The position numbers and the translations under genes were made by a program. DNA of 64,000 nucleotides from Prochlorococcus sp. AG-355-I04 (lineage in GTDB: Bacteria; Cyanobacteriota; Cyanobacteriia; PCC-6307; Cyanobiaceae): positions 1 through 64,000 of the forward strand of contig QCDL01000005.1 in NCBI GenBank assembly GCA_003280915.1. Direction: 5' to 3'. Under the pieces are notes generated by a model that saw only the letters and a program-made list of their open reading frames with translations, did not search any database and was not told the DNA's origin. Below are positions 50,086-53,306 of this stretch, in pieces; positions within the stretch are counted from its first letter, which is position 1, and every line of letters begins with the position of its first letter.

Positions 50086-51240
50086 TTAAAAATTATTTTT
50101 TGAAAAATTTTCTAATATTCTCTGATTTATTTTTGGAATATTTTCTTTAAATTTAAAAAACCCTCTTTTAGCAAATTTCCAAGCAAATAAATCTTCATCC
50201 CTCACAAGATTAAAAATTTTTTTATGGTGTAAATTTTTAAACTCAGTTATGAAATCATAATTTTCTCCTACTCCAGGATAAATAATGTCTATTTCGTTAG
50301 TATTTTTAAAAGTACTTTCCAATGAATAAGGATCAATCTGTTCAACATTATCAAATTGCTCTACAAATTCAGAGACCAAATCTTGTTTAAATTTCAAAAC
50401 AGATTCAGACAATTTAATTTGTCTTTGTTCATTTTTTAAAAGGATAATAAATACTTTTTTATAGCTTGGAAGTAAATTTTTAAGGGTTGCTAGGTGCAGA
50501 TCATTTTCAAACATAATCAGATAATCTGATTTAGGATCCATATCATTTTTATAAATCTCATCTTCAAATGGTATTTGATTAGATTCTTCAAGAAAAATTT
50601 GTTGATTACTTATTTTTTCTACATTAAATCTATTATTTGAAAACTTTCTGAGGTTTGATGATGAAAAAAGATATTGTTTTCCCTTCGTTTGCAATCCTCC
50701 GACCCATCTCCAGCTAAGAAGATTAGATGAAGCATCTCCATCAAAAAGATATTTAAAGAAAAACTTTGCTCCCAATTGCCATGGGAGGCCTAAATTAAAT
50801 ATCCAAGTACTCGCAAACCACATTCTTGTATGGTTATGCAAATAGTTGTACTGCTTTAATTCATGGACCCAAGAATTAAAAAAATCTAATTCTGTATTGC
50901 CATTAATTGCACTTTCATATAGCTCATAATCAAAATCGAAATTGTTTTCTGAAATAAAATTTCTCCAAACTTTGGGTCTATTTTCCATCCAACCTTTCCA
51001 GTAAACTCTCCAAAATATTTCTTCAACAAATTTAGTTGAATTTTTGATTTTGTACTTACTTTTAATATCATTGATCAGATCATATTCCGATAATATTCTA
51101 TGAGTAATGAAAGGCGATAATTTTGAAACTGAACTTTCGTTATTTGGCCCAAAATCAAAATTTCTTAATTTTGCATAATCATTGATTTTGTATTTCGCAA
51201 AATTTTCCCAGGTATTTTGAGCTTTTAATAAAAATGACAT
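50086..51240 (-). CDS. photolyase/cryptochrome-related protein: N-terminal FAD-binding domain followed by a C-terminal alpha/beta domain
   Basis: 384 aa; residues ~1-220 FAD-domain motifs (SKLSPFITHRILS, FVEEIFWRVYW, NYLHNHTRMWFASTWIF, LFDGDASSNLLSWRWVGG); residues ~240-384 antenna-domain-like (YLIMFENDLHLATLKNLLPSYKKVFIILL ... RDEDLFAWKFAKRGFFKFKENIPKI). Confidence 0.82.
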   Translation of the reverse strand: MSFLLKAQNTWENFAKYKINDYAKLRNFDFGPNNESSVSKLSPFITHRILSEYDLINDIKSKYKIKNSTKFVEEIFWRVYWKGWMENRPKVWRNFISENNFDFDYELYESAINGNTELDFFNSWVHELKQYNYLHNHTRMWFASTWIFNLGLPWQLGAKFFFKYLFDGDASSNLLSWRWVGGLQTKGKQYLFSSSNLRKFSNNRFNVEKISNQQIFLEESNQIPFEDEIYKNDMDPKSDYLIMFENDLHLATLKNLLPSYKKVFIILLKNEQRQIKLSESVLKFKQDLVSEFVEQFDNVEQIDPYSLESTFKNTNEIDIIYPGVGENYDFITEFKNLHHKKIFNLVRDEDLFAWKFAKRGFFKFKENIPKINQRILENFSKNNF

Positions 51241-51518: not shown

Positions 51519-52268
51519 ATGAATAATTTATTAGTGAGAGATGTTAAGTATCTAGATGAACAATACAGAATAGGTGAAGGCATAATTTCGGATGATGCAT
51601 TTAAGCAACTTGAGAAGCTCTTTATTCCTATTGATCCAAACCCTAACTACTTTAATCAAAAAAATAATAAACTTTTGCCAAAATTAGCTAAAGAAAACTA
51701 TAAAGAATTTTTGGAAAGTTTATTAACAAAAACAAGATTAAGCATTCAACCAAAAATTGATGGCTGTGCTATTGCAATTAGATATATAGATGGCAATTTT
51801 AATAAAGCTATTACAAAGAAAGGATTTGATGTCTCAAGCAAAATTAAACAAATTAAAAATGTCCCCGATTGTATTCCTATCAAACGAGATTTTCAAATTA
51901 GAGGTGAACTATACTCTACAAACCAAGTTGCCGGCATTTCCAAAAGAATTACAAGAAAATACCTCAATGATAAGAAAGGGATTGGAGAAAGTCTCCGCTT
52001 TTGCTGTTTCCAAATACTTAATGGAAGACTTAATCAATACGAAACCCTTAACTATCTTAAAAAATGTGGCTTCAGCACCCCTGAAAGTTACTTCACAAAT
52101 CATACAAGCGAAATCCAAATATATATAAAAAATTGGTTAGAGAAAAAAATATTTGCAAAATATCCAACTAATGGGATAGTTATAAAAATAAATAGTAGGA
52201 AATTACAGTTACTTAGAGAGAAAAGTTTATCTCAAAATAATGAATGGCAATATGCAATTGAAAAATAA
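51519..52268 (+). CDS. minimal NAD+-dependent DNA ligase-like protein (partial Ia + adenylation domain only)
   Basis: 249 aa; IQPKIDGCAIAIRYIDG (motif I KxDG), RGELYS (III), FCCFQI (IIIa), TNGIVIKINS (IV), WQYAIEK (V) then stop. Confidence 0.78.
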   Translation: MNNLLVRDVKYLDEQYRIGEGIISDDAFKQLEKLFIPIDPNPNYFNQKNNKLLPKLAKENYKEFLESLLTKTRLSIQPKIDGCAIAIRYIDGNFNKAITKKGFDVSSKIKQIKNVPDCIPIKRDFQIRGELYSTNQVAGISKRITRKYLNDKKGIGESLRFCCFQILNGRLNQYETLNYLKKCGFSTPESYFTNHTSEIQIYIKNWLEKKIFAKYPTNGIVIKINSRKLQLLREKSLSQNNEWQYAIEK

Positions 52269-52376: not shown

Positions 52377-53306
52377 ATGACTGCCACTATTTCAAGGCCA
52401 AAAATCTCTAAATGGGAAACATCTAATATTCCAAACCTTACAGGCAAAACAGCGCTTATTACTGGTGCGAATAGTGGTCTTGGATATTACACTGCAAAGG
52501 CCTTAGCAGAAAAAAATGCTCATGTTGTTATAGCTTGTAGATCACTCGAAAAAGCTAATCAAACTATCAAAAAACTTAAAGGTCTTAATCCTGAAGGATT
52601 ATTTACACCATTAGAATTAGATTTGTCAGATTTAAAAAATATTGTAGAAGTTCAGTCCAAAATTTTTGATAATTTTGAAAATTTGGATTTACTAATCAAT
52701 AATGCAGGCATTATGCATCCGCCTAAAACTCTTAGTGCCCAAGGATATGAAATACAATTTGCAGTTAATCATCTAGCTCACATGCTTTTGACACTAAAGT
52801 TACTTCCAATTATTGAAAAAAAAGAAGAATCTAGAATAGTGACGGTGACTTCCGGAGCACAATTTTTTGGCAAAGTTGGTTGGAAAAATCTGAAAGCCGA
52901 GAACTATTACAACAAATGGGAATCTTACTCCAATAGCAAATTGGCAAATGTAATGTTTGCTTTGGAACTAAATGAGAACTTAAAGCACAAAAATATACTT
53001 TCTTTAGCTGCTCACCCAGGAATTGCAAAAACAAATCTCTTTACTGCTCAAAAACCTAACCCTGGTCCATTAGAAACACTCTCATTGGAATTATTTAGTC
53101 CTATTTTTCAAACTGCTGAGATGGGTGCTTTACCTCAGCTTTTTGCAGCTACTTCACCAGACGCAAGAGGCGGTGATCATTATGGTCCTAGATTTAATTT
53201 CAGAGGTCATCCAAAACTATCCCCTACTTCTCCTTTCGCAATGAATAAAAAAGAAAGAAAAATTTTATGGGGAAAAAGCCTCGAAATACTTAATAACTTC
53301 TTATAA
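52377..53306 (+). CDS. short-chain dehydrogenase/reductase (protochlorophyllide reductase-like)
   Basis: 309 aa; ALITGANSGLGYYTAKAL, LINNAGIM, YSNSKLANVMF. Confidence 0.92.
   Translation: MTATISRPKISKWETSNIPNLTGKTALITGANSGLGYYTAKALAEKNAHVVIACRSLEKANQTIKKLKGLNPEGLFTPLELDLSDLKNIVEVQSKIFDNFENLDLLINNAGIMHPPKTLSAQGYEIQFAVNHLAHMLLTLKLLPIIEKKEESRIVTVTSGAQFFGKVGWKNLKAENYYNKWESYSNSKLANVMFALELNENLKHKNILSLAAHPGIAKTNLFTAQKPNPGPLETLSLELFSPIFQTAEMGALPQLFAATSPDARGGDHYGPRFNFRGHPKLSPTSPFAMNKKERKILWGKSLEILNNFL

Follow-up and report, generated by a model that had tools for sequence, protein, structure and literature searches.

A stand-alone LigA-type adenylation protein of Prochlorococcus with altered catalytic residues and recombinase-linked mobile relatives

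The 64,000-nucleotide stretch of Prochlorococcus sp. AG-355-I04 analysed here (the window) encodes a 249-residue protein that sequence comparison supports as a stand-alone LigA-type adenylation protein and that, judged by its domain content, is not a DNA ligase. Our preferred reading, held with about even confidence, is that its gene (paralogue A) is a fixed and catalytically impaired member of a picocyanobacterial family of LigA-type adenylation proteins that act as partners of mobile-element recombinases. The family has been little studied. Annotation of its short members as DNA ligases obscures two things: the proteins are missing parts that a ligase needs, and high-light Prochlorococcus are without a complete NAD+-dependent ligase. 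The copies coupled to recombinases point to an accessory function in site-specific recombination. An abundant free-living bacterium in which LigA appears to have been swapped in place for an ATP-dependent enzyme would, in addition, make the indispensability of LigA directly testable.

Results and Discussion

The Window Protein Comprises the Adenylation Part of LigA

The protein is encoded by an open reading frame that begins with ATG and is unbroken, as an earlier reading made from the letters alone (the sequence-only reading) had reported. The gene and its motifs lie in the window as follows.

51519..52268, + strand: stand-alone LigA-type adenylation protein, paralogue A, 249 aa (open reading frame; PF01653, 69.1 bits; conservation across the genus)
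51549..51623, + strand: Ia-like region, residues 11-35 (YLDEQYRIGEGIISDDAFKQLEKLF), with D25 kept and Lys29 as the equivalent of D36 (alignment, residue counts)
51753..51764, + strand: motif I KIDG, residues 79-82, with the nucleophile Lys79 (Lys79 in 103/103 distinct orthologues)
51900..51908, + strand: motif III RGE, residues 128-130 (R128 and G129 in 103/103, E130 in 102/103)
52167..52193, + strand: motif IV TNGIVIKIN, residues 217-225, with Asn218 for the equivalent of LigA Asp285 and with Lys223 kept (N218 in 95/103, K223 in 103/103)
52245..52265, + strand: motif V end WQYAIEK, residues 243-249, with Glu248 at the motif V lysine position and the stop after Lys249 (E in 84, Q in 14 and K in 5 of 103)

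The score against PF01653, the NAD-dependent DNA ligase adenylation domain, lies above the cut-off of 27 (E 5.6e-19), and that against the LigA model TIGR00575 (62.8 bits) falls below the equivalog cut-off of 444.45. Residues 5-246 match phrog_3869, a group of phage NAD ligases, over almost the full length, and solved LigA adenylation domains also match the protein. The likeness to the Ia and nucleotidyltransferase (NTase) part of LigA was borne out with a profile of the family, which aligned with the solved domains (3jsl, E 8e-25) over a stretch that starts ahead of motif I and reaches motif V. This part of the NAD+-dependent DNA ligase is all that the homology covers, and the protein ends one residue past motif V. 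PF01653 was the sole domain found in it, with no OB, Zn-finger, HhH or BRCT domain, and the 108-nt gap between its stop codon and the next gene holds no OB coding sequence in any frame. The sequence-only reading was thus right that a LigA-like adenylation protein stands alone here, ends at motif V and lacks the remaining ligase domains. AlphaFold2, run on a shallow alignment, returned a mean pLDDT of 34.6, and the model was set aside; PADLOC gave nothing convincing. A match to the gene was found in 188/200 congeners and in 66/66 of those of good quality, which rules out a chance open reading frame; close loci among named genomes are those of P. marinus MIT 9401, MIT 9201 and MIT 9314.

The Gene Is Fixed in Place and Weakly Constrained

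Two genes flank the window gene in every complete named locus (65/65), and both names come from reading of the sequence.

50086..51240, - strand: photolyase-like protein, 384 aa, upstream and divergent
52377..53306, + strand: short-chain dehydrogenase-like (SDR) protein, 309 aa, downstream

Relatives with the same architecture occur in four picocyanobacterial genera, and most of them stop one residue past the motif V lysine position. Among the matches listed from a phylum-wide sample of 341 genomes, short members occurred in no genera but the window's own, g34 and g27, the remaining listed matches being full-length ligases of ~650-740 aa; a separate search found family members in g14 as well. 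The common end point across genera, the fixed neighbours and the lack of an OB remnant rule out a recent truncation of LigA, for which the sequence-only reading had named OB or HhH coding sequence downstream as the telltale sign. In a subfamily of g34 (LLI-type; L154-L160), the motif I Lys is kept and the Asp is replaced by Ile (KIIG), and these proteins have neither the Ia region nor the motif V Lys; all the same, they are intact in 7/7 genomes examined. The two genes annotated 'DNA ligase' in a clade-specific region of the LLI strain NATL2A, at 954713-955315 and 959226-959912 (PMC6102989, Table 2), belong by their coordinates to the same family. The copy at 959 kb has KIIG, without the motif I Asp, the Ia region or the motif V Lys. 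NATL2A (G331) differs from the window's genome in that a full-length LigA is also present.

Simple pairwise estimates gave a median dN/dS of 0.30 for paralogue A and 0.14 for paralogue B, a second copy described below. Five genes neighbouring A, measured alike, ranged from 0.07 to 0.25, which leaves A the highest of the six. The window gene is broken in G103, G099, G119 and G314 and is missing from some complete genomes. By these estimates the gene is under weak purifying selection; it is constrained but dispensable.

Paralogue A Has Lost Catalytic Residues That Paralogue B Keeps

The residue counts for paralogue A cover 103 distinct orthologues, with E. coli LigA numbering assigned by alignment. 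By sequence, the protein belongs to the same fold family as LigA (TIGR00575; PF01653; PDB 3jsl, 1tae, 2owo), with motifs I, III, IV and V in order behind an Ia-like N terminus. Apart from the missing C-terminal domains, the window protein differs from LigA in a shortened segment after motif I and in carrying Arg for H23 and Phe for Y35, replacements common to A and B. In A, K79, G82, R128, G129 and K223 of the window protein are invariant, and D81 and E130 show one variant each. The position of LigA D36 is occupied by Lys (96/103), that of E113 by Gln (101/103), that of R136 by Lys (96/103), that of D285 by Asn (95/103), and that of K314 by Glu or Gln (98/103). Mutagenesis of E. coli LigA has established the importance of these residues for NAD+ binding and catalysis. 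The window protein keeps the equivalents of K115, D117, E173 and K290, but its stretch aligned with R200-R208 ends in LN, not LR, and in WQYAIEK a Glu takes the motif V lysine position with the Lys one residue further. The full LigA catalytic set of Ia and motifs I, III, IV and V is therefore incomplete in this copy, which, having lost the D36, R136, D285 and K314 equivalents, is probably poor at NAD+ chemistry. Four of the 103 orthologues retain the D, R, D, K set, as the copies of G022 and G320 do, so the loss happened inside the A clade. The same genome has a second family member with the catalytic residues kept.

G000:C14:28110-28856: paralogue B, at another locus

Across B, the residues lost in A are kept in 35/35 distinct proteins, except that D36 is found in only 33. 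Isolated LigA adenylation domains form a lysine-AMP adduct from NAD+; from their residues, B and the copies in mobile elements can probably self-adenylylate with NAD+ too.

These losses bear on how far the gene may have drifted. That it is a captured mobile copy in slow decay, already functionless in many strains, is a possible reading, though a good deal less probable than an impaired but fixed family member. It would account for the active-site losses, for a dN/dS above that of the five neighbours, for the broken copies and for the complete genomes that lack the gene. On the other hand, a dN/dS of 0.30 is well below 1, most congeners have the gene intact, and Lys79, the RG of motif III and K223 are still invariant after the other residues were lost. 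The sequence-only reading had argued against simple decay from the intact frame and motifs; a fresh truncation is indeed contradicted by the constant neighbours and the dN/dS, but the loss of several catalytic residues and the broken copies in some congeners weaken the argument beyond that.

The same reading had held that all the motifs survive and that the protein may adenylate something other than a nicked duplex. As an active NAD+-dependent adenylyltransferase it would then have proteins, RNA or small molecules as candidate targets. The motifs do stand in order, with Lys79, RGE and the motif IV Lys conserved, and together with purifying selection and the whole catalytic set of paralogue B this might favour activity. 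At the level of single residues, however, the motifs have not all survived: about 95 of the 103 distinct orthologues have other residues in place of D36, R136, D285 and K314. Several congeners, moreover, carry the gene in broken form or not at all. We therefore regard activity of the window protein as unlikely, more so than slow decay, and the step from motifs to enzyme finds no support in this copy.

Mobile Copies Overlap Recombinase Genes

Seven elements carry an NTase gene of this family that overlaps the end of a recombinase gene by 4 nt. In G006 and G144, the overlapped gene encodes a 618-aa serine recombinase (PF00239, PF07508). In G095, G104, G129, G336 and G345, it is of the tyrosine-integrase type, a class to which some members with weak or absent Pfam support were assigned by mutual similarity. 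All five elements of the window's genus contain a prohead protease-capsid fusion, and 4/5 contain a similar small HTH protein. A gene for tRNA-Pro(tgg) or tRNA-Ser(tga) lies in several element loci, and in G015 a tRNA-Ser(tga) is 166 nt from the B copy. Integrase remnants adjoin the NTase copies of G213 and G333, and in G266 a divergent integrase lies 46 nt from the NTase copy. Within one tyrosine-integrase family the NTase gene accompanies only G336 and G345, 28/30 loci being without it, and these integrases therefore have no general requirement for it. The serine recombinase-NTase pair at L284:8266-11680, and likewise that at L279, lies between two copies of a glyoxalase-like gene, as if the element sat in or beside that gene; at L284 the copies are 84% identical over 377 nt and one has a shortened 3' end.

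The window copy overlaps no recombinase gene, being set between the photolyase-like and SDR genes, and neither a recombinase nor a remnant of one was seen beside it or beside B. In a tree of the family, A forms a separate supported clade and the B copies are intermixed with the element copies. As no recombinase adjoins either gene, a mobile origin of A and B rests on the tree and on the habit of the family, whose mobile copies suggest where it arose. The tight overlap shows co-expression and not physical partnership. The idea that the protein needs a partner, also raised by the sequence-only reading, finds an echo in the site-specific recombinase as the only consistent neighbour of the mobile copies; as for the nick-binding partner that was meant, no OB-fold or nick-binding subunit is present in the genome.

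Put together, our preferred reading would run as follows. Mobile members of the family appear to travel with integrative elements, directly downstream of and overlapping a site-specific recombinase gene, and the family may be an accessory module of certain recombinases from which A and B are captured copies. The element copies and B, with their full residue set, would form a Lys-AMP adduct from NAD+, would be unable to seal nicks alone for want of an OB domain, and may work together with the recombinase or its DNA. In the window copy, efficient NAD+ chemistry has most likely been lost, and the protein would persist as a nucleotide-binding pseudoenzyme whose role is minor and dispensable, or else be a slowly decaying captured copy.

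An ATP-Dependent Ligase Occupies the ligA Locus

The sequence-only reading had pointed to a full-length ligA elsewhere in the genome as informative. None exists in the window's genome, and nearly the whole genus is without LigA. The OB domain of LigA was found in 33/34 genera of a sample of the family; among the genomes drawn from the window's own genus, G320 and G313 were the only ones to have it, and a full-length LigA is present in G314 too. A query made of the LigA C-terminal half matched 2/80 genomes of the genus (G320 and G314), and two further matches were short pieces of the C-terminal BRCT end. The OB domain and the C-terminal half are accordingly absent from the window's genome and from 78/80 congeners, and no OB family match was obtained in the window's genome or in 18 congeners, which rules out an OB-only partner in the genomes searched.

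What these genomes do have is a 442-aa ATP-dependent ligase that matches the solved Pmar-Lig end to end (PDB 6RAU, 6RAS, 6RAR).

G000:C4:50998-52323 (L331): Pmar-Lig of the window's genome, at the ancestral ligA locus (comparison of L330, L333 and L335 with L186, L332 and L334)

Like the window protein, Pmar-Lig contains a ligase-type nucleotidyltransferase, but it is a complete enzyme of another family. It was present in 29/29 genomes of the window's genus and in 0/161 others; in a second count it was present in 58/60 genomes of the genus, the two without it being G320 and G314. Both ligases occur within one gene order (sprT-like, a 140-aa open reading frame, the ligase, TVP38-like, valS). 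The locus holds LigA in G320, G314 and G331; in the window's genome, as in G171, G015 and G022, it holds Pmar-Lig. Because the two share a chromosomal position, it looks like Pmar-Lig replaced LigA in place. Pmar-Lig has been presented as additional to the replicative NAD-dependent enzyme (PMC6698739), which is not the case in the genomes that we examined. Another paper names LigA as the ligase essential to bacteria for Okazaki fragments and lists a 'Lig W' of P. marinus as unclassified, without a stated role (PMC12133292). We found no report of the replacement in the open literature, most of the subscription literature lying beyond the search.

The absence of LigA parts also bears on a split NAD+ ligase with the OB, Zn-finger and HhH domains supplied in trans, in the manner of T5-like phages. 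Their ligase subunit A (phrog_3359 type) is likewise an adenylation part encoded apart, the ligase being divided between adjoining genes for subunits A and B, and it is a distant relative of the window protein (~28% identical). The 323-aa subunit A, however, runs on after motif V into OB-like sequence, so that T5 is split at another place. The window copy has no lysine at the motif V position and no partner here, and we consider a T5-type split very improbable. No stand-alone cyanophage copy was present among the annotated phage records listed; in those examined, the gene was either that of a T5-type subunit A or ~2 kb long, the size of a complete ligase (one of the latter in a Microcystis phage).

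It is tempting to speculate that the NAD+-reactive ligase-head protein of mobile elements serves certain serine and tyrosine recombinases as an accessory recombination factor, of a kind that we did not find described, and that its interference with host LigA helped to favour the ATP-dependent replacement in high-light Prochlorococcus. We saw no causal link between the two, and hold this combined proposal to be improbable. A second ATP-dependent ligase, of 546 aa (G000:C35; L192:1487-3127), occurs in most, not all, genomes of the genus.
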